From Acidocella aminolytica 101 = DSM 11237 (GTDB lineage Bacteria > Pseudomonadota > Alphaproteobacteria > Acetobacterales > Acetobacteraceae), in the NCBI RefSeq assembly GCF_900129125.1, contig NZ_FQVJ01000005.1, forward strand, positions 1 to 64,000: DNA of 64,000 bases, read 5' to 3'. Every line of letters begins with the position of its first letter. Within the stretch, counting starts at the first letter, position 1. A program made the position numbers and the translations under genes. Below the pieces are notes generated by a model. The model ran no database searches and had not been told where the DNA came from. It saw nothing but the letters and a program-made list of their open reading frames with translations. Of this stretch, positions 11,828 to 39,633 are shown one piece after another.

Positions 11828-13472
11828 GCTTTACAATTCGGTCCTGGCGTGTCGCAGCGCTATCTTCAAGACTGAACTGTTCCATCATCCCCGTCAGATC
11901 ATTGGCCTGCTCTTCTAAGGCGTGGCTCACGGCGGTTGTTTCTTCCACCATCGCGGCATTCTGCTGAGTAACTTGATCCATCTGGTTCACCGCGCCGCTA
12001 ATCTCAGCCAATCCAGCCGATTGTTGCGCCGTTTTCCCGGAAATGCCCTGCACATCCTGGTCAATTTTCTGCACCTCAGCAACAATTTCCGCCATCAACG
12101 CGGCAACGCCATGTACCAGCTTCACGCCATCCTCTACCTGCGTGCCAGCATTTGTAATCAGATTTTTGATTTCCTTGGACGCATCAGCCGAACGCTGGGC
12201 AAGACCCCGGATTTCCGTGGCGACAACCGCAAAACCACGTCCAGCCTCACCGGCACGCGCGGCTTCCACCCCAGCATTCAGCGCAAGCAAACTGGTCTGA
12301 AAGGCAATTTCATCGATCACGACTATAATTTCACCAATTCTCCCGGATGCCTCCTCAATCCTCTGCATGGCCCTCGTCGCATCCACCAACACAGCACCTG
12401 ATTGATCGACCCTGTTGCGCGCCCCCGCCGCGAGCATTTGCGTGTGCTTCACATCCTCAAATGTTGTCCGTATTGACCCGCTGATCTCACTAAGCGCGGC
12501 GGCTGTTTGTTCCAGTGTCGCCGCCTGCTGCTCGGTGCGCCGGGAAAGATCATCCGATGCCTGCCGAATTTCCCGGGCGCTATTCGTGACCCCTCCGGCC
12601 GTTTGGCCAATCGCCTGCATTGCCGTGGAGAGTTTTTCAAAAGCCTGATTCAGATCAGTCCGCAATGTTTCATATGCAGCATCCAGACGCGTCGTGAGAC
12701 GATAGCCAAGATTACCACGCGCCAGTTCACCAAGTGCAGTCGAAATAACTTCCATGGCCACGCGTTGCGCCTCAGTCTTGGCCCGTCGCGCGTCTTCATC
12801 ATGGCGGCGGACATCTTCATAATTCTGCCGTTGGGTCAGCGCCTCCATCGTAGTTGCCTTAGCAACGGTATTCATCTGACTCAGCACTGAAAGCGCCGCA
12901 GGAAAATCCTGCGGGTCAACAATTTCAGATTTTACGTCGTTCTTCTTGACGCCCACGAACAAAACACCAATCACCGCGCCACCAGACAGCACCGGTTCAT
13001 AATAAGTGTAGTATCTTTCTCCCAAAATCTCCGCTTCGCCGCGAAAAGACGCTTTGGCCGTGAATACGGCATCATAAACTGCACCACGCGCGAGATTGGT
13101 GCCAATGGCACGCTGACCGTTTTCAGCCACCACATTAGTGGCAACGCGCTGGTCACGCATGAAAATGGTCGCCACCCCTCCATGAGCGGTACGAACCTCA
13201 TCAACAATTTTGACGTCACCATTCACGCAGGTTTGGCCAAAAAACAACCTATCCCCTTCAAGCCGGGGGGCACCAAGCTTGGACAATTTAGCGCGCAACA
13301 GATCAATGTTCCTGTCCAGCCCGAGTTGGGCCTGCAATGCAGCCTGGTCTTGCTCGGCCGCCCGGGCAAGACGCACCATGTTTGCCAGCAATGCGTTCTG
13401 TCGCCGCCGGAACCACAACCAAGCTGCCAACGCCAAAATACCCGCCTCCAGAAGCAGCATTATATAAGCCAT
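11805..13472 (-). CDS. Methyl-accepting chemotaxis protein with one N-terminal membrane helix and a Cache-like domain
   Basis: The 555-residue chemoreceptor has one membrane helix (about 4-21), then arginines (RRRQ), a Cache-like sensing domain (about 50-175: GDRLFFGQTCVNGD, AIGTNLARGAVYDAVF, RYYTYYEPVLSGGAVIGVLF), a linker and a signalling domain. The hairpin tip is IDEIAFQTSLLALNAGVEAA followed by GRGFAVVATEIRGLAQRS. No second membrane helix is visible after the Cache domain, so the sensor probably lies in the cytoplasm, unlike the usual periplasmic arrangement. No CheR-docking pentapeptide is evident at the C-terminus. It presumably feeds the flagellar motor. Confidence 0.88.
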   Translation of the reverse strand: MAYIMLLLEAGILALAAWLWFRRRQNALLANMVRLARAAEQDQAALQAQLGLDRNIDLLRAKLSKLGAPRLEGDRLFFGQTCVNGDVKIVDEVRTAHGGVATIFMRDQRVATNVVAENGQRAIGTNLARGAVYDAVFTAKASFRGEAEILGERYYTYYEPVLSGGAVIGVLFVGVKKNDVKSEIVDPQDFPAALSVLSQMNTVAKATTMEALTQRQNYEDVRRHDEDARRAKTEAQRVAMEVISTALGELARGNLGYRLTTRLDAAYETLRTDLNQAFEKLSTAMQAIGQTAGGVTNSAREIRQASDDLSRRTEQQAATLEQTAAALSEISGSIRTTFEDVKHTQMLAAGARNRVDQSGAVLVDATRAMQRIEEASGRIGEIIVVIDEIAFQTSLLALNAGVEAARAGEAGRGFAVVATEIRGLAQRSADASKEIKNLITNAGTQVEDGVKLVHGVAALMAEIVAEVQKIDQDVQGISGKTAQQSAGLAEISGAVNQMDQVTQQNAAMVEETTAVSHALEEQANDLTGMMEQFSLEDSAATRQDRIVKRLVQEVS

Positions 13473-28237: not shown

Positions 28238-28253
28238 ACCAAACATACGCAGT

Positions 28254-28274
28254 TTACCGAACATCGCCCGGTAA
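28254..28274. promoter_or_regulatory. Candidate operator upstream of the NCS1 permease
   Basis: TTACCG and CGGTAA form a perfect inverted repeat with nine bases between, about 100 bases before the permease start. It is a plausible binding site for a dimeric regulator, such as the LuxR-type response regulator of the same cluster. I did not find the same motif upstream of fmdA or the sensor gene, so the link is only a guess. Confidence 0.3.
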
Positions 28275-28371: not shown

Positions 28372-30051
28372 ATGTCAGCAACATCTCACGACCCCGGCGC
28401 AAAACTTCCGCGACGGAAATTCAATAAACTCGTCTCAAACCCGGTATTCGAGGATTATTCCCTCCGATACGCGCCCAAGAGTTTCCGAACCTGGTCGCAA
28501 TATGCCGTGTTCTCGGCCGCATTGGGCGGTATCGCCTATCTAGCAGACCAAGCCATTGGCGGCTCGCTCGCCGTGCAGTTTGGGTTCACCAATGCCTTCT
28601 GGGGCATCATCGCGGCGGCGGTGATCATTTTCCTCACCGGCATTCCCATCGCTTATTACTGCGCCAAATATAATGTAGACGTGGATCTGCTGACCCGTGG
28701 CGCGGGCTTTGGCTATCTCGGCTCCACCATCACCTCGGTCATCTACGCGTCCTTCACCTTCATATTTTTCGCGCTTGAAGGCTCTATCATGGCGCAAGCC
28801 TTCAATCTCTATTTCGGGATTCCGCTGCCCATCGGCTACGCAATCGGATCTTTGATGATCATTCCGCTGGTGACATTCGGCATGACGCTGCTCTCCAAGC
28901 TTCAGGTCTGGACCCAGCCGCTCTGGCTGTTGCTGCTCTTTGCCCCGCCCGTGGCCGTGCTGATGGAAGACCCGAACGCGGTCTCAAACTGGGTGAATTT
29001 CGCCGGCGCTTCCCCCAGCGGCGACAGCTTCAATCCGCTGCTGTTCGGCTCCGCTGCCGGAATCGCGCTCTCGCTCATCGCGCAAATTGGTGAGCAAGCT
29101 GACTATCTGCGCTTCATGCCGGACAAGACCAAGAAAAGCTCCTTCGGCTGGTGGCTGGCCGTTCTCGGCGCAGGTCCCGGCTGGGTGATTCTGGGGGCGG
29201 CCAAGCAGCTCATGGGCTCGTTCTTCGCCTCCGTGGCGGTGACGCACGGCACCAAGCTGGCACAAGCCAACGAGCCCATTCAGATGTATCATGCTGGTTT
29301 CACCTATATCTTCGGCGCGGGCTTCGCGGCCATCACGGTGGCTACCTTTTTCGTCATTCTGTCGCAGATCAAGATCAACGTCACCAACGCCTATTCCGGC
29401 TCGCTATCCTGGTCCAATTTCTTCTCGCGTCTTTTGCATGTGCATCCTGGCCGCGTTATCTACATCTTCTTCAATGTTGGCATCTCGCTGACCATGATGG
29501 AGCTGAATATGTTCTCGGTTCTCGGGCATATTCTTGGCTTCTATTCCAACGTCGCCGTGGCCTGGATCGGCGCGGTCACCGCAGACCTTGTCATCAACAA
29601 GCCCATTTTGAAACTTAGCCCGTCTTATATCGAGTTCAAGCGCGCGCATCTCTACAACTTCAACCCGGTCGGCTTTGGCGCCATGGTGATCGCCTCGATC
29701 ATCTCCGTGCTCGCCTTCTTTCATCTGTTCGGGGATTATGCCGCCGCCTACTCGGCGTTCATCGCGCTGGGCGTGTCCTTCATTGCTTCCCCCATCATCG
29801 CCATTCTCACCAAGGGTAAATATTATGTTGCCCGTGAAACCTGCTACCATGCCGGTGTGAAGCACGACACGATGAGTTGCGCGTCCTGCGGCTTTGAATA
29901 TGAGGCCCAGGATATGACCGGCTGCCCCTTCCACAAGGGCAATATCTGCTCACTCTGCTGCTCGCTGGACTCCGATTGCCACGACCAGTGTAAAAAACCC
30001 CATGCGGACCCGGTGCTGTCTTTTGGCACGCCCGCTGACCTCTCCCGCTAA
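28372..30051 (+). CDS. NCS1-type permease with a C-terminal eight-cysteine tail
   Basis: The 559-residue inner membrane protein has about twelve predicted helices in residues 45-490 and NCS1 (cytosine/purine/allantoin permease) features. Signature stretches are VDLLTRGAGFGYLGSTITS, SLIAQIGEQADYLRF and KINVTNAYSGSLSWSNFFSR. After the last helix it adds a cysteine-rich tail with C503, C506, C518, C526, C529, C530, C536 and C540, likely a metal or iron-sulfur site. AGGAG precedes the ATG. Lying before amiE, it is probably an amide permease, but that is inferred from context. The same sequence recurs as the sensor domain of the hybrid kinase at 33839-37222. Confidence 0.85.
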   Translation: MSATSHDPGAKLPRRKFNKLVSNPVFEDYSLRYAPKSFRTWSQYAVFSAALGGIAYLADQAIGGSLAVQFGFTNAFWGIIAAAVIIFLTGIPIAYYCAKYNVDVDLLTRGAGFGYLGSTITSVIYASFTFIFFALEGSIMAQAFNLYFGIPLPIGYAIGSLMIIPLVTFGMTLLSKLQVWTQPLWLLLLFAPPVAVLMEDPNAVSNWVNFAGASPSGDSFNPLLFGSAAGIALSLIAQIGEQADYLRFMPDKTKKSSFGWWLAVLGAGPGWVILGAAKQLMGSFFASVAVTHGTKLAQANEPIQMYHAGFTYIFGAGFAAITVATFFVILSQIKINVTNAYSGSLSWSNFFSRLLHVHPGRVIYIFFNVGISLTMMELNMFSVLGHILGFYSNVAVAWIGAVTADLVINKPILKLSPSYIEFKRAHLYNFNPVGFGAMVIASIISVLAFFHLFGDYAAAYSAFIALGVSFIASPIIAILTKGKYYVARETCYHAGVKHDTMSCASCGFEYEAQDMTGCPFHKGNICSLCCSLDSDCHDQCKKPHADPVLSFGTPADLSR

Positions 30052-30099: not shown

Positions 30100-30117
30100 G
30101 TGAAAGGACCTTCAAAG

Positions 30118-31164
30118 ATGTTGCATGGAGATATTTCCAGCAGTGCCGATACAGTCGGCGTAGCCGTGGTGAATTACAAAATGCCCCGGCTGCACACCAA
30201 AGCGGAAGTTATCGAAAACGCCAAGAAAATCGTCGCGATGATCCCCGGAATGAAGCTGGGCCTACCGGGGCTGGACCTTGTGGTTTTCCCTGAATATTCC
30301 ACCCAGGGCATCATGTACGATCCTGGTGAAATGATGGAAACCGCCGCCACCGTGCCAGGCGAGGAAACCGAAATCTTCGCCGCCGCCTGCCGTGCCTCAA
30401 AAGTCTGGGGCGTGTTCTCCATCACTGGAGAACGTCACGAGGACCACCCGAACAAAGTGCCCTACAACACCCTTATCCTCATCAACGATCAAGGCGAAAT
30501 CGTCCAGAAATACCGCAAGATCATGCCCTGGGTGCCAGTTGAAGGCTGGTATCCCGGCGGCAAAACCTTTGTCTGCGACGGCCCGAAAGGGCTAAAAGTC
30601 AGTCTGATTATCTGCGACGATGGTAATTACCCGGAAATCTGGCGCGACTGCGCGATGAAAGGGGCCGAACTGATTATCCGCTGCCAAGGCTATATGTATC
30701 CTGCCAAGGAACAGCAGGTGCTGATGTCCAAAACCATGGCCTGGGCCAATAATGTTTATGTGGCCGTCGCCAACGCCACGGGGTTTGACGGCGTTTATTC
30801 CTATTTCGGCCATTCCGCGCTCATCGGGTTTGACGGCCGTACGCTGGGAGAATGCGGAGAAGAGGACTATGGCATACAATATGCGGCGCTCTCGAAATAT
30901 CTGATCCGAGATGCCCGCAAGAATTTGCAATCACAAAACCATCTCTTCAAACTTCTTCATCGCGGCTATACCGGCATGGTCAATTCCCGCGAGAACCAGC
31001 CTGGCATGGCGGTTTGCCCGTTCGATTTCTACCGGGAATGGGTGAACGACCCTGAAGCCACCCGCACCAAGGTGGAAGCCCTCACACGTCCAACATTAGG
31101 CACCGAGGAATGCCCCATTGAAGGTATTCCCAACGGTTCCAGCGTCGCGCCCGCTGCGGAGTAA
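30118..31164 (+). CDS. amiE: Aliphatic amidase
   Basis: Hydrolyses short aliphatic amides (acetamide, propionamide) to the acid and ammonia. The 348-residue protein matches Pseudomonas AmiE closely along its whole length, including the N-terminus [20 protein letters not shown]. The nitrilase-fold triad is at E59 (FPEYS), K134 (QKYRKIMPW) and C166 ([11 protein letters not shown]), the same numbers as in Pseudomonas. The start at 30118, 11 bases behind AAAGGA, is preferred to an in-frame codon at 30100. Formamidase AmiF is a close relative, but the N-terminus and overall identity favour AmiE. Confidence 0.93.
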
Positions 31165-31223: not shown

Positions 31224-32074
31224 GAGCCTTTGGTCATTTGACTGAGGAGATCCCGGCGCGGGATTTTTCGTGATTCATAGCCGATCGGCATTTTGAAGGG
31301 CTGATCGATGGCCCGTTATGGGCTAAATTCTGAACAATGGGAACGGCTCGCCCATCTCCTCCCAGACAAGGACGGCGACGGTGGTGTGACGGCCAAAGAC
31401 AACCGGCTTTTGTAAATGCGGTTTCATATCGTTACCGTGCGTGGATTCCCTGGCGCGATCTACCGGAGTGATTTGGCGATCCGTTGGACATTCACAAGCA
31501 GTTCAGCCGCTGGACGAAAAACGGTGTCTGGGAACGGGTCTTTTCCTTTTTGGCTACCGATGCTGACAATGAATACGCGATGATCGGCAACGCCATCGCA
31601 CACGCCATCAGCACAGTGCCGGCGCCAAAAAAAGCCGGCGGAGACCAAGGCATCGGACGAACCCGCTGCGGATTGAGCACCAAAATCCATGCTTTCATTG
31701 ATGCACTGGGCAACCTCGTTGCTTTTAGTCTGAGCAGCGGGCAAGCCCATGACTTGGCCGGGGCCGATAACCTTCTGCCCGACATGCAGGTTGATTTACT
31801 GACCGCCTATAAAGCATGCGATGCCGATGAATGGGTTATTTCCTGTCTGGCCGACAAGGGTAAAGCCGTCGTGATCCGGCCCAAGTCAACCCGAAAAATC
31901 AAGCGGGAATATGATCGCGATATCTACAAAACGCGCCATCTGATCGAAAGCTTCTTCGCCAGATTCAAGCAAATCCGCGCCAACGCAACGCGCTACAATA
32001 TACCGGCCAGGAACTACTTCCTGGCCGGTATACACCTCGCAGCCGTGGTAATTGTCTCAAATGACCACAAGCCC
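31224..32074 (+). mobile_element. IS5-type insertion sequence, degenerate
   Basis: The inverted repeats GAGCCTTTGGTCATTTGA (31224-31241) and TCAAATGACCACAAGCCC (32057-32074) match at 15 of 18 positions and bracket the transposase remnant. Exact ends and the target duplication are unclear. The element lies between amiE and fmdB, inside the amide cluster. Confidence 0.7.
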
Positions 32075-32125
32075 CAAGTTAAATTACGGCTGCATGTGTT
32101 GCGGCTGTTTTCTTTTAATGGCTGA
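31308..32125 (+). pseudogene. IS5-type transposase, frameshifted and with a stop
   Basis: The frame starts MARYGLNSEQWERLAHLLP at 31308, as in IS5-type transposases. It shifts near 31411 (after KDNRL) and then continues FVNAVSYRYRAWIPWRDLPE in another frame. A TGA at 31469-31471 falls where the next codon should be arginine. The rest (FGDPLDIHKQFSRW, GRTRCGLSTKIHAFIDALGN, HLIESFFARFKQIRANATRY) is open to 32125 and keeps much of the catalytic domain. The frameshift and stop make it inactive in cis. Confidence 0.85.
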
Positions 32126-32450
32126 TCATCCAAGGCCGGGAGCCTGGAAAACTCTTCATCGGCGGCGGTGAATCCGCCTTCAGCCTGGGCTGAGATGTAG
32201 CACAGCACCCGCAGCCCGGCGGGTGCTTGCCCGTGCGCCGGGTGCTATCCGGCGCATGAGCGCTTTTTTCATTCATCGCATGGGCTTTGCGTTTGCTATT
32301 GCTCATCAGCGCGAAATGCGGCGCGCTCAGCAACGCGCGCGGCGCTGCCTCCCCACATTCCGGGCAGCCATGATCCGCCTCGAAGGCGGACATGGGCATA
32401 AGCGCGGTGAACGGCCCGCAGGCAGGGCAAAGATAATCGTAAACCGGCAT
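32115..32450 (-). CDS. fmdB: FmdB-type zinc ribbon protein
   Basis: FmdB-family proteins accompany formamidase genes and are thought to regulate them. The 111-residue protein starts MPVYDYLCPACGPFTAL and has two CxxC pairs (CPAC, CPEC), forming a zinc ribbon at residues 8-34. A third cluster, CGCC, lies near residue 80. The gene sits right after fmdA on the same strand with one base between stop and start. Its stop lies about 40 bases from the edge of the IS5 remnant, so its C-terminus seems intact. Its mechanism is unknown. Confidence 0.85.
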   Translation of the reverse strand: MPVYDYLCPACGPFTALMPMSAFEADHGCPECGEAAPRALLSAPHFALMSNSKRKAHAMNEKSAHAPDSTRRTGKHPPGCGCCATSQPRLKADSPPPMKSFPGSRPWMISH

Positions 32451-32451
32451 T

Positions 32452-33684
32452 TTATTTATCCGGCGAAACGGGCATATCCACCCCGCCGGTGATCATCTTC
32501 ACCGGCCCGGCAGCACCGGGATTGATGTCAAACTCGAAAATTTCCGTCGGCAGATACAAGGTGGCGCAAGCGTTCGGCACATCCACAATCCCGGAAATAT
32601 GCCCCTGCACCGGCGCTGTGCCCAGCAACGAATACGCCTGCGCCCCGGAATAACCGAAAGTCTTGAGATAATTGATCGCGTTCAAACAAGCCTGCTGATA
32701 AGCCACAAACATATCGAGATAATGCTGCTCGCCAGAATCGTCGACGGAAATGCCCTCAAACACAAGATAATCCTGATAATTCGGCTTCATCGGGCTGGGT
32801 TTGAACAGCGGATTCTTGATCCCGTATTTTGCCATGCCGCCCTTGATGATCGAATGAATCCCAAGATGAATAAAGCCCGGCATTTCAATGGCGCCGCAGA
32901 AAGTGATTTCGCCATCGCCCTGGCTGAAATGCAGATCCCCGACGGACAAGCCCGCCCCCTTCACATAAACCGGGAAATAAACCCGCGCCCCGCGTGAGAG
33001 ATCCTTAATATCGCAATTCCCACCATGCTCACGCGGCGGCACGGTGCGCGCCCCTTCAGCGGCGGCTTTGTCCCGGGCGGCTCCTTGCATCCGGCCCATA
33101 TGGGCGGTGGGGGCAAAAGGCGGGTTGGCAAGCCCCGGCACGCGGGTGGGATTGGTGGAAATCAATGCTTTCTCGCGCTTGTTCCAGCTCTCCAGCATTT
33201 TTGCGTCAGGCAGGCAGCCGATCAGACCGGGGTGAATCAACCCCGCGAAATTCACTCCCGGAATATGCCGGGAGGACGTAAACATACCCTTGAAATCCCA
33301 AATGGATTTCTGTGCCTGCGGAAAATAATCGGTCAGAAACCCGCCGCCATTCTGCTTGGAGAAAAACCCGTTAAACCCCCAGAGATTTTCCTGCAGCGGC
33401 CCGATATCGAGAAAATCCACCACCAGCAGATCCCCCGGCTCAGCGCCTTCCACCTCAATCGGGCCGGAGAGGTAATGCACGGTGGTCAAATCCACATCGC
33501 GCACATCATCGGCGCTGTCATTATTCTTGATGAAGCCGCCGGTCCAGTCATAGCATTCGAGGATGAAATCATCCCCCGGCCTGACCTTGGCCACCATCGG
33601 AATATCCGGGTGCCAGCGGTTATGAACCATATCGTTGTCGAGGGGCGATCCATTGAGATCGACTTTGATCAGCGTCTCGGTCAC
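32452..33684 (-). CDS. fmdA: Formamidase/acetamidase FmdA
   Basis: Hydrolyses formamide to formate and ammonia, with weaker activity on acetamide; unrelated in fold to AmiE. The 410-residue protein fits the FmdA family length, with TLIKVDLNGSPLDNDMVHNRWHP at its start (shown in part), ILECYDWTGG and DLHFSQGDGEITFCGAIE. I placed the start at GTG 33684, behind GGAGTG; the longer in-frame version from 33723 adds an unrelated leader. It is transcribed with fmdB and divergently from the sensor kinase, sharing a 150-base promoter region. Confidence 0.93.
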   Translation of the reverse strand: MTETLIKVDLNGSPLDNDMVHNRWHPDIPMVAKVRPGDDFILECYDWTGGFIKNNDSADDVRDVDLTTVHYLSGPIEVEGAEPGDLLVVDFLDIGPLQENLWGFNGFFSKQNGGGFLTDYFPQAQKSIWDFKGMFTSSRHIPGVNFAGLIHPGLIGCLPDAKMLESWNKREKALISTNPTRVPGLANPPFAPTAHMGRMQGAARDKAAAEGARTVPPREHGGNCDIKDLSRGARVYFPVYVKGAGLSVGDLHFSQGDGEITFCGAIEMPGFIHLGIHSIIKGGMAKYGIKNPLFKPSPMKPNYQDYLVFEGISVDDSGEQHYLDMFVAYQQACLNAINYLKTFGYSGAQAYSLLGTAPVQGHISGIVDVPNACATLYLPTEIFEFDINPGAAGPVKMITGGVDMPVSPDK

Positions 33685-33772
33685 GGGGCGGACACTCCAT
33701 TTGGCTGAAATGAAAAGGAACAAGTACGTGCAACGTGTCCCCTCAGCCTCGAAAATCCGCGCCCTCGGCGGA

Positions 33773-33790
33773 ATACGGAAGAGTGCGTAT
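33773..33790. promoter_or_regulatory. Candidate palindrome between fmdA and the sensor kinase gene
   Basis: ATACG and CGTAT are arranged as an inverted repeat with eight bases between, in the 154-base gap between the divergent fmdA and sensor genes. It is a possible regulator site for both, with no independent support. Confidence 0.25.
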
Positions 33791-33838: not shown

Positions 33839-36800
33839 GTGCGATTGGCGTTTCCACAGCGGATTACCCCCATACGGCGCAGCTATAACCAATTCGTCGC
33901 GGATGAGACGATGGAGGATTACGCGCTACGCTTCACCGCCAGCGCCGCGCGCAAGTTCTCCGCGCGGGCGGTCGCCAATACCGCGTTCGGCGCCACCTCC
34001 TTCCTGGCACTGGAGGCGATTGGCGCCACGGTCACGCTGCAATATGGGCCGGTGAACGCGGTGGCGGCGATTTTGAGCGTCGCCTTGCTCATCTCCCTCA
34101 CTGCCGGGCCGATTGCTTATGTCGCCGCGAAATACGGCGTGGATATCGATTTACTGACCCGTGCCGCCGGGTTCGGCTATATCGGCTCCACCATCACATC
34201 GCTCATCTACGCCTCGTTCACCTTTATTTTTTTTGCGCTGGAAGCCTCTATCTTTGCCAACATGCTGAATCAGGTTTTCGGCATTCCGCTACATCTTGGC
34301 TATGTACTTACCACGCTCGGCATTATTCCCCTGGCGGCTTATGGCATCACATTCATCTCGCGCTTCCAGGCATGGAGCCAGCCGCTCTGGCTGGCGTTGA
34401 ATTTTCTACCTTTGCTATTTCTGGCTCTGGATCCAGCCTTGCTACATGATTGGGCGGGGTTTCATGGGCTGGGCTGGGCAGGCGGGTTTTCGCTGCTGCC
34501 CTTTGGCGCCTGTGCCTCCATCATTGTGTCATTGATCGCGCAGATTGGGGAGCAAGCGGATTATCTGCGGTTTTTACCCAGGCCCGATCCCAAGGCGCGC
34601 TGGCGCTGGTGGGGGGCCTTGCTTGCTGCGGGGCCAGGCTGGGTGCTGCCGGGGGTGGTGAAAATGCTCATGGGCTCAGTGCTGGGGGTGCTCTCGCTGG
34701 GGCTGGGTTATGGGGCGGAGCAAGCCGCACAGCCTATCATTCTCTACCACGCCGCCTACGGGCTGGCGCTGCCGCCGCACGCGGCTTTGCTGGCCGCCGC
34801 CCTGCTGGTGGCGGTGGCGCAGACCAAGATCAACGTCACCAACGCGTATGCGGGCTCCATCGCCTGGTCCAATTTCTTCTCCCGCCTGACGCACCGGCAT
34901 CCTGGACGGGTGATCTGGCTGGTGTTCAACGCCGCCATCGGGCTGCTGCTGATGGAGCTGGATATTTACCGCTCAATTGCGCCCATTCTGGCCTTTTATT
35001 CCGTGCTAGCCTGCGGCTGGATCGGCGCCATCTCTGCGGACCTGGTGCTGGTGAAAGGCATGCGCCTCGGCCCACGCATCATCGAATTCAAGCGCGCCCA
35101 TCTGTATGACATCAACCCCGTCGGCACCGGCGCCATGCTGCTGGCCACGCTGGCTGGGGCGCTATGCATCTCCGGGCTACTGGGAGCGTATGCCCATGCT
35201 TTCGCGCCGTTTATCGCATTGGCCAGCGCCTTTATCGCGGTACCCGCCATTGCCGCCGCCACGCGCGGGCGGTTTTACCTGGCCCGCAGGCCGCGCCGCG
35301 CTTGGGCAGGGGAGAGCCAGCTTGTCTGCTCGGTCTGCGATAACGCGTTCGAGCCGCAGGACATTGCCTATTGTCCGGCCTATGCGGCGCCCATCTGCTC
35401 CCTTTGCTGCACACTGGATTCCCGCTGCCGGGATGCCTGCAAGCCCCATGCCCGCTATGGCACGCAGATCATCGGGCTGATGCGCCATCTACTGCCAGCA
35501 CGGCTGCGCGGCCGGATGGACCCAGTGTTGCTGCGCTTTCTAGGCGTGTTCAGCCTCACTGCCGTGGTGCTGGGTGTGATTTTCTGTGCCTTTTACTGGC
35601 AGGCCGCCAGCCAGAACAGCGCCTTGGCCGCGCTGCTGGCCACCGCGTTCTGGCGGGTGTTTGTATGTATTCTGCTAGTAGCGGGGGTGTTTGCCTGGCT
35701 GCAGGTGCTAGCGCGTGAATCCTCCCTGGCGGCGGAGGAGGAAAGCCGCCGCCAGACCCAGCTGCTGCTGGCCGAGATTGACGCCCACCGCAAAACCGAC
35801 GCCAAGCTCGCCCGCGCGCGGGAGGTGGCGGAAGCCGCCAACATCGCCAAAACCCGCTTCATCGTAGGGGTGAGCCACGAGCTGCGCACGCCACTGAACG
35901 CCGTGCTGGGCTATGCGCAGCTCTTGGAAAACGACGAGACCATCCCGCCCCGGCGGCGGGAGACTATCGGCATCATCCGCCGCTCGGGCGAGCATCTGCA
36001 CGGACTCATTGAAGGGCTGATGGATATTTCCAAGATTGAGGCCGGGCGAATCGACATTGAACGGCGGGAGGTGAATTTCCCGGATTTTCTGGCTCAGATC
36101 ACCGGCATGTTTCGCCTACAGGCAGCAGCGAAGGGGCTGAGTTTCGAGTTCGAGACCCCATCCCGCCTGCCGACTTTGGTGTTTATTGATGAAATCCGCC
36201 TGCGGCAGATTCTGATCAACCTGCTCTCCAACGCGCTGAAATTCACCACGCGCGGGGGCATCCGCCTGGCTTTACGCATACCAGGAGAGGTAATGGAGTT
36301 CGAGGTTGCGGATACTGGCCCCGGCATCGCGCCGCAAGACTTGGCCCGGATTTTCGAACCGTTTGAGCGTGCCTTGCCCAAGAACAGTGCCGCACCGCCG
36401 GGGATCGGGCTGGGGCTAACCATCACCAAGCTGCTAGTGGAAATTCTGGGCGGGCGTATTTCCGTGGATAGCACGCCCGGCAAGGGTAGCCGCTTCAGAG
36501 TGCAACTGCTCATCTCCCGCGCGCCCCGCGCCAGTGCTAGCGCGCCGATGCAAGGGCGCATCGTAGGGTACCAGGGCGCGCGACGCACCATTATAGCGGC
36601 GGAGGACAACGCCGTGCACCGCGCTTTGCTGCAAGATGCGCTGACCCCGCTAGGCTTCACCCTGCTCACTGCACCGGACGGCCCCTCTTGCCTTCGGCTG
36701 GCGGCGGGCTGCAAGGCGGATCTGTTTCTGCTGGATTACTCCATGCCGCAGACCGAAATGCCGGCGCTGAACGGGCTGGGCTTGGCCCGTCAGCTGCGCC

Positions 36801-37222
36801 GGCAACCCAACCACGCCGCCACGCCTGTCATCATGCTTACCGCCCATGCGCCGGTACTGCACGGCGGCGGAGAGGCAGCGTATGACGCCGCCCTGCCCAA
36901 GCCCGTTAATTTCGCCAAGCTGCTGGAGACCATCGGCACGCTGCTGAAGCTCGCCTGGATCCAAGATACCCCCGCTCCGGCGGAACCCACCGCGCCGTCT
37001 GCCCCCGGCTTGGCTGAAGCCGCCTTGCGCCCGCATATCGCCCAGCTTCGCTATTTAGCGCAGATAGGCTTTATACGCGGGCTAGAAGAAAGCCTTGAGC
37101 GGCTGGCCCTGGAAGCGCCTGAGGCAAAAGACATTCTGGCACCGCTGAGCGCCCTGGCCGCCGGGCTGCGTCTGCCTGAATTTCTTGCCGCACTGGAGGA
37201 GCTGGAACAAGATGCCGCCTGA
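33839..37222 (+). CDS. NCS1 permease fused to a hybrid histidine kinase
   Basis: The 1127-residue protein begins with a full-length NCS1-type membrane domain (about 20-480) that aligns end to end with the permease at 28372-30051; SLIAQIGEQADYLRF and TKINVTNAY are identical. It then has the same cysteine tail (C497, C500, C512, C520, C523, C524, C530, C534), two extra membrane helices (about 560-630), a HisKA domain with H680 in VSHELRTPLNAVLGYAQ, an HATPase (N798 in NLLSNALKF; DTGPGI; GIGLGLTI), a receiver with D966 in LLDYSMP, and a helical end. It starts with GTG at 33839. It is presumably a membrane sensor for the substrate of the permease. All kinase residues are present. Its response regulator gene overlaps the 3' end. 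Confidence 0.9.
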   Translation: MRLAFPQRITPIRRSYNQFVADETMEDYALRFTASAARKFSARAVANTAFGATSFLALEAIGATVTLQYGPVNAVAAILSVALLISLTAGPIAYVAAKYGVDIDLLTRAAGFGYIGSTITSLIYASFTFIFFALEASIFANMLNQVFGIPLHLGYVLTTLGIIPLAAYGITFISRFQAWSQPLWLALNFLPLLFLALDPALLHDWAGFHGLGWAGGFSLLPFGACASIIVSLIAQIGEQADYLRFLPRPDPKARWRWWGALLAAGPGWVLPGVVKMLMGSVLGVLSLGLGYGAEQAAQPIILYHAAYGLALPPHAALLAAALLVAVAQTKINVTNAYAGSIAWSNFFSRLTHRHPGRVIWLVFNAAIGLLLMELDIYRSIAPILAFYSVLACGWIGAISADLVLVKGMRLGPRIIEFKRAHLYDINPVGTGAMLLATLAGALCISGLLGAYAHAFAPFIALASAFIAVPAIAAATRGRFYLARRPRRAWAGESQLVCSVCDNAFEPQDIAYCPAYAAPICSLCCTLDSRCRDACKPHARYGTQIIGLMRHLLPARLRGRMDPVLLRFLGVFSLTAVVLGVIFCAFYWQAASQNSALAALLATAFWRVFVCILLVAGVFAWLQVLARESSLAAEEESRRQTQLLLAEIDAHRKTDAKLARAREVAEAANIAKTRFIVGVSHELRTPLNAVLGYAQLLENDETIPPRRRETIGIIRRSGEHLHGLIEGLMDISKIEAGRIDIERREVNFPDFLAQITGMFRLQAAAKGLSFEFETPSRLPTLVFIDEIRLRQILINLLSNALKFTTRGGIRLALRIPGEVMEFEVADTGPGIAPQDLARIFEPFERALPKNSAAPPGIGLGLTITKLLVEILGGRISVDSTPGKGSRFRVQLLISRAPRASASAPMQGRIVGYQGARRTIIAAEDNAVHRALLQDALTPLGFTLLTAPDGPSCLRLAAGCKADLFLLDYSMPQTEMPALNGLGLARQLRRQPNHAATPVIMLTAHAPVLHGGGEAAYDAALPKPVNFAKLLETIGTLLKLAWIQDTPAPAEPTAPSAPGLAEAALRPHIAQLRYLAQIGFIRGLEESLERLALEAPEAKDILAPLSALAAGLRLPEFLAALEELEQDAA

Positions 37223-38135
37223 TCCTTCCGCCCGCCCGACTATTCTGATTGTGGATGACGACCCCGCCATGCTGCGGCTGCTGATCGACGCCTTGGAGCC
37301 CGCGGGCTTCAACGTGCTAGTGGCATTGCAAGGCGAGATGGCGTTGGTGCTGCTGGAACAGGTCACGCCGGATGTGATTTTGCTGGACGCGCTGATGCCG
37401 GGCATTGACGGGTTCGAGACATGCCGCCGCCTGAAACGCCGCCCCGGCCTGACGCTGGTGCCGGTGATTTTCATGACAGGGCTGACCGATACGGAAAACG
37501 TGGTTTCCGGCCTGCAGGCTGGAGGTGTGGATTATGTCACCAAGCCCGTGATACCGGGCGAGTTGATCGCGCGGATCCGCGTGCATCTGGCCAATGCCCA
37601 GCTCACCCGCAGCGCCCAGCGCGCCATGGATGCCGCAGGCCGGTTTCTGCTGGCTGCGGATGCAAAGGGCCGCATGCGCTGGAGCACATATCAGGCGGCC
37701 CTGCTACTGGGGGATATCGCTCCCGGGACGGAGCTGCCTGCCGAGGTGCAAGCGTGGCTAGCCACGCGCCTCACCCAGCCGCAGGAGGTACCGGGCAGCA
37801 TCACCATCGCCCTGCCCGCCCCCAACAGCCCGACGCGGCGGGTGGAGTTTGTGCTGATCGGCCAGATGGCGGAGGATGAGTTTCTGTTGCGAATCGTCGA
37901 ACAGGACACCGACCATGATTTCGACCGGTTGCAGGCGCGCGTGCCGCTTACGCGCCGGGAGACCGAGGTGCTGCTCTGGCTGGCGCGCGGTAAATCCAAC
38001 CGCGACATCGCGCAGATTTTAAACGTGAGCTACCGCACGGTGAACAAGCATCTAGAGCAGATGTACCCCAAGCTGGGGGTCGAAACCCGAACGTCCGCGG
38101 TGGCGATCGCGGTCAGGGCGCTGGAAGGGGCTTAA
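37212..38135 (+). CDS. Response regulator with LuxR-type DNA-binding domain
   Basis: The 307-residue regulator has a receiver (residues about 8-125; phosphorylated D59 in ILLDALMPG, lysine in DYVTKPVIPG), a middle PAS-like stretch (about 135-235) and a C-terminal LuxR/FixJ helix-turn-helix (LTRRETEVLLWLARGKSNRD, NVSYRTVNKHLEQMYPKLG). The ATG at 37212 behind GGAGGAG overlaps the end of the sensor kinase gene by 11 bases, so this is its partner. It probably controls the amide permease, amiE or fmdA. Note that the regulator is not of the AmiR/ANTAR antiterminator type. Confidence 0.9.
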   Translation: MPPDPSARPTILIVDDDPAMLRLLIDALEPAGFNVLVALQGEMALVLLEQVTPDVILLDALMPGIDGFETCRRLKRRPGLTLVPVIFMTGLTDTENVVSGLQAGGVDYVTKPVIPGELIARIRVHLANAQLTRSAQRAMDAAGRFLLAADAKGRMRWSTYQAALLLGDIAPGTELPAEVQAWLATRLTQPQEVPGSITIALPAPNSPTRRVEFVLIGQMAEDEFLLRIVEQDTDHDFDRLQARVPLTRRETEVLLWLARGKSNRDIAQILNVSYRTVNKHLEQMYPKLGVETRTSAVAIAVRALEGA

Positions 38136-38884
38136 TGGTCCGGCGCCCAGTGGAGGAGCTTTTTCAGCAGCATATCCACCGCCACCCAGAGCAGAACGGT
38201 CAGTACCGCCAGCAGCACCAGGGCAGCGAACATCACGTCCGTCTGCATACGAGCGTTGGCGTTAAGCATGATATAACCCAGCCCTTCGGACGCTCCTGCC
38301 CACTCCCCCAATATCGCACCGATGGGGGCTATAGACGCCGCGATGCGAAGCCCCGCCCCAAAAGCCGGCAGGGCGGCCATCAGCCGCACATGCAGCAGCA
38401 TTGAAAGCCTGGAGGCCCCCATGGTCTGGGCGAGGTCCAGCCAGCCGGGCTCGGTACGGCGCAGGCCGTCGTAAAAAGCGGCGGTAACAGGGAAGAAAAT
38501 CACCAGCACCGTCAACAACACCTTGGAGGCAAGGCCAAACCCCAGCCACAGCACCAGCAGCGGCGCCAGGGCGAAAACCGGCACAGCTTGGCTGAGCAAC
38601 AGCAAAGGTAGCAGCCAGCGCTGCAACCCGCGTGAAAACACCATAACCAGCGCCAGCAAGGCGCCGAACAATGTGCCGAATCCTAACCCCAGCCCAATTT
38701 CAACCAGCGTGACCAGCATGTTCTGGAACAAAAAGCCGCTCTGCGTCACCAGCACCCGCGCCACCGCGCCAGGGCCGGGCAGCAGAAAGGCCGGAATCCC
38801 GGAAAACCGCGCCAACCCCCACCAAAGCACCAGCAGGCCGAACACTGTTCCCGCCGGACGGAGCGCATTTTGCAGATGCTTCAT
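38132..38884 (-). CDS. ABC importer permease, NitT/TauT family (ThiX-like)
   Basis: The 250-residue inner membrane protein has about six helices and the BPD permease loop EAA-like motif (DLAQTMGASRLSMLLHVRLMAALP). The C-terminal part GAILGEWAGASEGLGYIM resembles ThiX-type permeases for hydroxymethylpyrimidine, a thiamine precursor, and relatives for taurine and nitrate. Its ATG overlaps the stop of the ATPase gene (ATGA). No periplasmic binding protein gene lies nearby, so the substrate is uncertain. Confidence 0.82.
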   Translation of the reverse strand: MKHLQNALRPAGTVFGLLVLWWGLARFSGIPAFLLPGPGAVARVLVTQSGFLFQNMLVTLVEIGLGLGFGTLFGALLALVMVFSRGLQRWLLPLLLLSQAVPVFALAPLLVLWLGFGLASKVLLTVLVIFFPVTAAFYDGLRRTEPGWLDLAQTMGASRLSMLLHVRLMAALPAFGAGLRIAASIAPIGAILGEWAGASEGLGYIMLNANARMQTDVMFAALVLLAVLTVLLWVAVDMLLKKLLHWAPDH

Positions 38885-39633
38885 GCTGTCTGCCCGTCTA
38901 GCAGGGCGCGCAGCAATTCGCCCTGGGTATGGAGCAGCGCGTCGTCATCCGGGGCGCGGGGCGGGGTTCCGGGTACTATGAGCGCCGGGCCCAGCCGCGC
39001 AGGTTTGCCCGCCAGAACATAAAGGCTGTGCCCCAGGCGGCAGGCTTCCAGCGGGTCGTGGGTGATGAGCAGCATGGTGCGCCCGGCCAGCAGCCTAGCC
39101 GCCAGTTCCTGCATTGCCGCACGGGTAATGGCATCCAGTGCTGAGAACGGTTCGTCCATCAGCACCACGGGGCGGTCTTCATATAGCGTGCGGGCCAGGG
39201 CGACGCGCTGGCGCATACCGCCGGAGAGTTCCTTCGGCAAAGCGCCCTCCCGGCCGTGCAGCCCCACCGCGTCCAACAGCTTAAGGGCACGTGGCTTGTC
39301 GGCCCGCTGACCGCGCAGGCGGCTGCCGATGGTGACGTTCTCCAGCACGCGCGCCCAGGGGTAGAGCAGGTCCTGCTGGCCCATCCAGGTCACGCGGCCG
39401 GTGAGCGGCAAACCATCCGAGGCGCGGACGTGGCCGGTCTCGGGTACGGCCAGCCCCGCCGCAATCCGCAGCAAGGTGGTCTTGCCAACACCGCTGGCCC
39501 CCAGCAGCGCCGTGCAGCGCCCAGCCTCAGCGGTCAGGTTCAGCCCCTCAAACAAGGTCTGGCCTTCATAACGCAACGCCAGACCTATCATTTCCAGACC
39601 CGGCGGCGCGGCTTGTTGGTGCGAGTCACTCAT
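38881..39633 (-). CDS. ABC importer ATPase (ThiZ-like)
   Basis: The 250-residue ATPase has Walker A GASGVGKTTLL, signature ELSGGMRQRVALART, Walker B VVLMDEPFSALD and the switch histidine in MLLITHDPLEA. It belongs to the nitrate/taurine/thiamine-precursor group and powers the adjacent permease. The complete system should contain a soluble binding protein that is not in this window. Confidence 0.88.
   Translation of the reverse strand: MSDSHQQAAPPGLEMIGLALRYEGQTLFEGLNLTAEAGRCTALLGASGVGKTTLLRIAAGLAVPETGHVRASDGLPLTGRVTWMGQQDLLYPWARVLENVTIGSRLRGQRADKPRALKLLDAVGLHGREGALPKELSGGMRQRVALARTLYEDRPVVLMDEPFSALDAITRAAMQELAARLLAGRTMLLITHDPLEACRLGHSLYVLAGKPARLGPALIVPGTPPRAPDDDALLHTQGELLRALLDGQTA

Follow-up and report, generated by a model that had tools for sequence, protein, structure and literature searches.

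The closest described systems are sensor kinases in which a transporter and a histidine kinase share one polypeptide chain. CbrA, CrbS and RpuS all combine a LeuT-fold transporter with a histidine kinase and have an output in nutrient use: CbrA belongs to the histidine system (PMC13022988), and, according to the abstracts, CrbS is associated with acetate utilisation and RpuS with the pyruvate symporter MctP. Similarly, in Ks-Amt5 of Kuenenia, an uptake transporter was recruited as the histidine-kinase sensor for a nitrogen nutrient (PMC5764959), although in that case the fold is that of Amt and the nutrient is ammonium. CbrA was termed a "rare" transceptor in a 2026 preprint (PMC13022988), and a 2024 paper, a text search of which gave no hit for NCS1, describes transceptors as apparent oddities (PMC11109136). 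Here, we analysed a 64,000-nucleotide stretch of Acidocella aminolytica 101 = DSM 11237 (contig NZ_FQVJ01000005.1, positions 1 to 64,000; hereafter the window), in which one gene (33839..37222, plus strand) encodes an NCS1-like permease joined to a hybrid histidine kinase. We consider it probable that this protein is a transporter-derived receptor ("transceptor") kinase for short amides or urea, which would act via a LuxR-type regulator on an operator. No NCS1-type sensor kinase was found in the literature searched, whose coverage leaves out most subscription journals; this agrees with a preliminary description of the locus, made from the sequence alone, which knew of no characterised NCS1-type counterpart.

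Architecture and predicted fold of the permease-kinase

The gene is a single open frame of 1127 amino acids (aa) with a GTG start. Its C-terminal part consists of a HisKA domain (residues 670-736, 35846..36046, PF00512, E 5.4e-17) with the phospho-acceptor H680, a HATPase_c domain (residues 784-890, 36188..36508, PF02518, E 3.7e-26) and a receiver (REC) domain (residues 918-1032, 36590..36934, PF00072, E 9.9e-13) with D966. All three exceeded the Pfam cut-offs, and no other Pfam domain was matched in the kinase at E 0.001. These domains are preceded by a permease-fold sensor domain (residues about 28-477, 33920..35269), a tail with eight cysteines (residues 497-534, 35327..35440) and, according to the secondary structure of the AlphaFold2 model, a helical hairpin with a signalling helix (residues 562-670, 35522..35848), in which one helix spans residues 562-592 and the next begins at 594 and continues unbroken into the signalling helix. 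In the alignment of 78 full-length proteins (the window protein and 77 of the 80 best relatives, the short L006, L014 and L042 being excluded), H680, D966, K1021 and all eight tail cysteines were invariant (78/78). Residues 13-538 of the kinase aligned with a free permease of the window (28372..30051, plus strand), which ends 3.8 kb before the kinase starts, at 50% identity over 532 columns (E 2e-175), the Cys tail included. The uninterrupted frame, the three signalling domains with H680 and D966, the cysteine tail, the two further helices and the end-to-end alignment with the separate permease had all been read in the preliminary description and were recovered here.

The Cys tail modelled alone reached a predicted local distance difference test (pLDDT) score of 82.2, and its fold search returned weak matches only (best Z 3.2, no Foldseek E below 0.45). 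Many of these were RING, FYVE, PHD or LIM zinc domains, which suggests that the tail possibly binds zinc; naming a family for it was abandoned because the matches were too weak.

The fused architecture is genuine and is kept across relatives. A scan of one genome per species (84,980 species) gave at least 577 confirmed relatives, the best 80 of which were kept, and in 77 of these 80 the HisKA motif lies in the same frame as the permease part. Among the remaining three, L006 is cut by the end of its contig, L014 stops after 688 aa and L037 (1129 aa) was missed by the motif search, yet has the conserved histidine in the alignment. Moreover, in a phylum sample (Pseudomonadota, as judged from the named relatives) with a match in 52 of 398 genomes, 58 of the 60 matches were in frames of at least 894 aa; of the two shorter ones, one was the free permease of the window. 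An assembly error or a frameshift merging separate permease and kinase genes, which the preliminary description had named as a possible objection, is not borne out, since at least 77 of the best 80 relatives are fused, and we regard its probability as negligible.

The assignment of the sensor domain to NCS1 is based on the fold match and on profile-profile comparison and not on Pfam. PF02133 was unlisted up to E 10 for both the sensor domain and the free permease (HMMER filters drop most matches above about 0.1), so that an assignment from Pfam failed; nor was NCS1 among the matches when PDB sequences were searched using the permease or the family profile as query. The sensor domain alone had a weak match to the NCBIfam cytosine-permease model (E 2.3e-7, 29.9 bits versus a cut-off of 326). 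The AlphaFold2 model of residues 1-670 (34 sequences, pLDDT 81.9, predicted template modelling score 0.81) had CodB (E 1.9e-10) and Mhp1 (E 6.8e-10) as its top Foldseek matches, and VIA-align superposed 392 residues on CodB (Z 34.9, root-mean-square deviation 3.3 Å) and 426 on Mhp1 (Z 29.9, 3.9 Å). The next family in the VIA-align ranking was represented by SLC7A10 (Z 25.0), and the SLC5-type sodium/solute symporters ranked lower (Z about 21-23). A comparison of the 88-sequence family profile with 30 NCS1 sequences (Mhp1 and 29 PF02133 proteins) in hhalign gave a probability of 99.8% in global mode (E 2e-26, 371 columns) and 99.1% in local mode (E 8e-19, 348 columns). Judged by model and profile, the sensor domain is NCS1-like, a distant relative that lies outside PF02133. 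The earlier reading of an NCS1-type membrane domain is thus upheld by predicted fold, the structure prediction it proposed ranking CodB and Mhp1 first, and by profile, and fails by PF02133.

Pocket positions were taken from the profile alignment, in which the family profile is thin (effective number of sequences 2.7) and a one-residue gap precedes N335. In this alignment, Asn314 and Asn318 of Mhp1 correspond to the invariant N332 and N335, Gln121 to the invariant E135 and Trp117 to F131 (Phe in 61 and Leu in nine of 70 sensors). Ser312 and Thr313 of Mhp1, taken as Na2 residues because CodB has Thr278 and Thr279 in this role (PMC9379551) and aligns there, correspond to the invariant K330 and I331; a lysine at the K330 position was found in 70/70 sensors, 18/18 free forms and none of the 30 NCS1 sequences. 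Eight residues (T128, E135, Q235, E238, Q239, K330, N332 and N335) were identical in all 70 sensors and all 18 free permeases; T128, E135, K330, N332 and N335 fall on pocket or Na2 positions of NCS1 in the alignment, and Q235, E238 and Q239 are located in the poorly aligned transmembrane helix 6 (TM6). As the TM6 alignment is unsettled, no claim is made for Trp220 of Mhp1; a hand alignment placing Trp117 on Y124 and Trp220 on L232 was superseded by hhalign, which places Trp117 on F131. Sensors and free permeases differ at the break of TM1. The free permeases, whose rows are few and related (n = 18), have A54, Y55, D58 (18/18) and F59 (10) or Q59 (8), while the sensors have S54 (63/70), F55 (70/70), L58 (63/70) and E59 (70/70). 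Position 58 is never Asp in the 70 sensors (63 Leu, four Cys, three Met) and E59 occurs in none of the 18 free forms. These differences could have cut ion coupling in the sensors.

Distribution, phylogeny and gene neighbourhood

The long, fused form was the commoner one in the phylum sample, and all 29 phylum-sample loci that were fetched (L090-L118) passed a loose kinase-motif test. The class sample had a match in 26 of 385 genomes, with 26 of its 28 matches in frames of at least 1124 aa; the two short ones were a fragment and the permease of the window. Of the 395 genomes in the order sample, 92 matched, and 16 matches were in frames of 534-672 aa, most of which are free permeases. L157 among them (481 aa) was kept out of the free-permease counts as a probable broken kinase; ABC genes adjoin it, and an exact operator core precedes it. 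Among 72,556 plasmid records, 502 matched at E 1e-100, 476 of these over at least 80% of the protein; Klebsiella accounted for 338 of the 502.

When 89 membrane domains (70 from fused and 18 from free forms, plus one outgroup) were placed in a tree, the fused forms lay on one side of a single branch (Shimodaira-Hasegawa-like approximate likelihood ratio test support 97). The rows were chosen by hand; the first selection omitted many loci, and the 89-domain tree also omitted L157. In a 50-row tree (15 free and 35 fused, 22 of the latter random, with the long-branch L160, L166 and L171 kinase excluded), the fused/free branch had a support of 100/96, and every one of the 200 bootstrap trees counted contained it. 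Because fused and free forms split once, their joining, or their parting, would most simply have been a single event. Whether the permease or the kinase form came first could not be decided: there is one branch with two sides, the outgroup branch is too long for rooting (10 changes per column) and the polarity of residues is divided six to four with two neutral. The preliminary phrase "transporter paralogue used as the sensor" therefore stands as regards a permease fold serving as sensor, whereas the direction that it implies is unsupported by the tree. A single clade on the fused side unites three shorter kinases of 874-885 aa (L127, L158 and L159). In L158 (5499-8156), the same sensor, Cys tail and hairpin appear, by eye, on a different kinase core, which we take to lack a receiver and to have an OmpR-type regulator nearby. 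No exact operator core was found in L158 or L159, both of which have FmdA/FmdB-type genes nearby.

The ligand class is probably short amides and urea, as inferred from the gene context. Context markers were called using tblastn (30% identity over 40% of the length, which may include other HAAT-type ABC systems), and an amide/urea-type marker was found in the fetched flanks of 77 of the 80 loci. The individual counts were the regulator (78 of 80), the substrate-binding protein (73), UrtB and UrtC (70 each), UrtD (69), UrtE (68), FmdA (50), AmiE (10), and UreC and FmdB (three each). Two of the loci without a marker, L032 and L042, include no more than 71 and 16 bases ahead of the kinase match. 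The amide signal proposed in the preliminary description thus gains support from these neighbours and from the inverted repeat that the loci share. On an annotated Klebsiella plasmid, amiF-urtEDCBA is divergent from the kinase and regulator; the locus fetched from the Klebsiella pneumoniae plasmid CP024483.1 (L085, 5909-16264) has urtABCDE-amiF in this arrangement and an exact core at 11879. A Burkholderia vietnamiensis plasmid has a nitrilase-type gene, FmdB, formamidase, "amino acid/amide" ABC genes, the kinase and a LuxR regulator, and a Methylovirgula plasmid has FmdB-FmdA, kinase-regulator-permease and an amidase. Additionally, a second permease-kinase in the window's own genome (L089, contig C70, 10203-13784) is co-directional with a regulator and an ABC operon, whose genes were recognised by eye and also resemble the urt genes annotated in L085; the sensor therefore goes with two unrelated uptake systems.

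The free permeases also adjoin such genes. In Moraxella, a free permease with no permease-kinase alongside adjoins FmdA. Eight further free permeases (L149-L156), from genomes that belong to the same family of organisms as the window, have a shortened Cys tail, and UreC lies near seven of them and not near L154; these are candidate NCS1-like urea permeases, as their neighbourhood suggests. In L150 (4696-6309), the next gene is ureG-like by eye, and we presume ureE, ureF and ureG to be present. In Acinetobacter baumannii (L171, 4341-9617), a kinase and a free permease are divergent with an exact operator core between them, and no amide marker was found nearby except a weak UrtE-like match.

In the window, the kinase is followed by a LuxR-type response regulator (REC and GerE) at 37212..38135 on the plus strand, with an inferred start that overlaps the kinase end (open reading frame (ORF) 37185-38135). 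Divergent from the kinase on the minus strand are the formamidase FmdA (ORF limits 32452..33723, PF03069 E 1.1e-180, NF045496 745 bits versus a cut-off of 500) and an FmdB-type zinc ribbon protein (32115..32450, PF09723, TIGR02605). Further upstream, on the plus strand, the free permease, identified from its ORF and alignment as a member of the sensor-domain family with a full Cys tail and with nearest relatives 83-90% identical, precedes an aliphatic amidase of the AmiE type (ORF limits 30100..31164, NF009802 695 bits, cut-off 427). A short IS5-family transposase frame (31484-32125) lies between the amidase and FmdB; in L163, the FmdB and amidase matches are only about 275 bases apart. ABC permease and ATPase genes (38132-39633) converge on the regulator gene; sulfonate/taurine models are nearest to them, far below the cut-offs, and they are probably unrelated.

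An inverted repeat as a candidate operator

When the 200 bp upstream of 70 dissimilar kinases were scanned blindly for inverted 4-mers, TACG-N8-CGTA was found in 39 of the 70 regions versus a mean of 0.05 over 20 single-base shuffles. Of 79 loci (the window and 78 of the 80, L032 and L042 being omitted), 53 carried the exact core in the 400 bp before the kinase and 68 a core with at most one mismatch. Exact cores numbered 54 in the 31.6 kb that precede the kinases versus seven in 1,051 kb elsewhere, and eight control patterns of other spacing or order occurred in none or one of the 79 loci. Five of the seven cores elsewhere are at other positions of the cluster: in L007 immediately past the regulator gene, at the place taken by the permease in the near-identical L164, in L028 between FmdA and UrtE, in L076 upstream of the binding protein, and in L047 and L067 inside probably over-extended kinase starts. 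The exact cores of L013 and L016 have no marker near.

In the window, ATACG-N8-CGTAT lies between fmdA and the kinase (33773..33790, plus strand) and is the only exact 18-mer there. A second candidate (28245..28262, plus strand), with one core mismatch, lies 126 bp upstream of the free permease, a position like that in L164 and L168 (exact cores, both 123 bp upstream of the permease), L165 (123 bp, one mismatch) and L163 (133 bp, one mismatch); in L162, a core with two mismatches lies at 126 bp. The chance per 300 bp is 0.4% for an exact core and 9% for a one-mismatch core. Nine free permeases with no adjacent kinase (L149-L156 and L170) had no core with at most one mismatch in the 300 bp upstream. 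The repeat is thus a candidate operator that the LuxR-type regulator may bind.

Proposed mechanism, alternatives and known systems

The following mechanism is proposed for the transceptor kinase. The NCS1-like membrane domain would bind a short-chain amide or urea (formamide, acetamide or urea) in the old transport pocket, and closure of the pocket would shift helices, a movement that HisKA would receive by way of the Cys tail, the hairpin and the long signalling helix, by analogy with CbrA. The phosphate of H680 would then be passed to the LuxR-type regulator encoded next to the kinase, either directly or under modulation by the attached receiver, because Pfam matched no HPt domain. The regulator would bind ATACG-N8-CGTAT and activate the divergent operon (fmdA or ABC transporter), as well as the permease-amidase operon in the case of the window.

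Several observations weigh against this proposal. Its support consists of architecture, predicted fold class, conservation, gene context and a conserved repeat, from which we infer the ligand and the phosphotransfer, and the signal might instead be nitrogen status or an ion gradient. The relatives behind the counts, being the best 80 of at least 577, are not independent, with many from Bradyrhizobium; the context markers could include other HAAT-type systems, and L078 is a true exception that has upstream DNA yet no amide/urea marker. The pocket positions depend on the thin profile (2.7 effective sequences) with its gap before N335. Eleven of the 79 loci have no core with at most one mismatch in 400 bp, although three of the eleven (L047, L067 and L076) have an exact one nearby, and the genome's own second kinase (L089) has none upstream (best, three mismatches). 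One-mismatch cores in the window number five versus a shuffle mean of 8.35, so that it is position alone that speaks for the permease site. The exact core occurs 25 times in the window's genome versus 85 times for a reversed control pattern and is therefore no genome-wide marker.

The membrane domain could also be, as the preliminary description allowed, a working amide or urea importer that signals as well, the kinase reading transport turnover. The eight polar residues common to sensors and free permeases fit this, and CbrA itself imports histidine and has Lys196 in its Na2 site (PMC13022988), as K330 here aligns with Ser312 of Mhp1. Nevertheless, we consider it somewhat unlikely, since dedicated uptake systems adjoin the kinase in most loci and the Asp58 of all 18 free permeases is absent from the 70 sensors, all of which have the E59 that no free form has. 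It is improbable, in our judgement, that the domain senses a partner uptake system or general nitrogen status and binds no amide: transporter-paired kinases such as BceS and DcuS do exist (PMC11109136) and an ABC transporter is frequent at the locus, but the partner may be an ABC system or a permease, two unrelated kinds, while the sensor is unchanged, and its eight polar membrane-domain residues are invariant.

A sensor for nucleobases or other ring compounds, as in classical NCS1 proteins, is very improbable. The predicted fold is that of NCS1, and Asn318 of Mhp1, a main hydrogen-bonding residue (PMC4195764), aligns with the invariant N335. However, the context is of the amide/urea type in 77 of the 80 loci, the ring-stacking Trp of Mhp1 and CodB (PMC4195764, PMC9379551) is replaced by Phe or Leu, and NCS1 transporters accept open-chain substrates, as with MetT and metformin (PMC13390362), MetT being named here as an NCS1 protein from its description and not by sequence. 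The nucleobase-like ligand offered in the preliminary description is accordingly weakened by the amide/urea neighbours and by the Phe or Leu at the equivalent of Trp117. The transceptor kinase for short amides and urea also permits a bolder extension, which is tentative and which we hold with less confidence than we would need to favour it. A third transporter scaffold, NCS1-like, would once have been made into a dedicated amide/urea receptor that spread through Pseudomonadota and clinical plasmids. It would have kept the pocket and, because the coupling acid was lost (D58 to Leu, E59 gained), would no longer transport; its free sisters would be a new class of amide/urea permeases with a lysine-filled Na2 site.

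In the papers surveyed, transporter-kinases are of the SLC5 and Amt kinds, and the common NCS1-like one has a sensor that Pfam leaves unnamed. Close sensors and free permeases in one cluster permit a residue-by-residue test of transporter versus receptor. Additionally, a candidate regulator and operator are supplied for amide/urea clusters, those of Klebsiella plasmids included. On gene content, we equate the Klebsiella plasmid cluster with UTS, the urea/formamidase cluster of Klebsiella CG307: urtABCDE-amiF is common to both and, on the plasmid, is read divergently from the kinase and regulator. A text search of the CG307 preprint gave no hit for "histidine kinase" or "two-component" (PMC13060141). 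In a 2026 genome paper, an urtABCDE operon is accompanied by a hybrid kinase and a LuxR-family regulator (PMC13296017), and our guess is that this kinase is the NCS1-like permease-kinase. As in AmiC/AmiR, amidase genes would be controlled by a ligand sensor (PMC13209695); in that system, however, the sensor is of the periplasmic-binding type and the regulator an RNA-binding antiterminator, as opposed to the membrane kinase and LuxR-type regulator found here.

With CodB and Mhp1, the window protein has in common the predicted fold, the profile, an Asp and Arg after TM6 and the Asn314/Asn318 positions; it differs from NCS1 in lacking a PF02133 match, in having Lys/Ile in place of the Na2 Ser/Thr, in the replaced Trp117 and in the added kinase. 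It resembles CbrA in the lysine at the Na2 site (PMC13022988), and its LuxR-type regulator and candidate operator have a parallel in CrbR, a member of the LuxR family with an imperfect inverted repeat at its targets (PMC5715377). The SLC5/STAC kinases differ in having an SLC5 domain and a STAC linker, whereas the window protein has a predicted NCS1 fold, the eight-cysteine tail and the hairpin; its linker had no significant Pfam match, though the presence of a STAC model in Pfam was not checked. By analogy, the protein would work like CbrA and Ks-Amt5, yet its sensor is, by predicted fold and profile, a distant NCS1 relative, and it is not filed with the SLC5/STAC or the Amt kinases.

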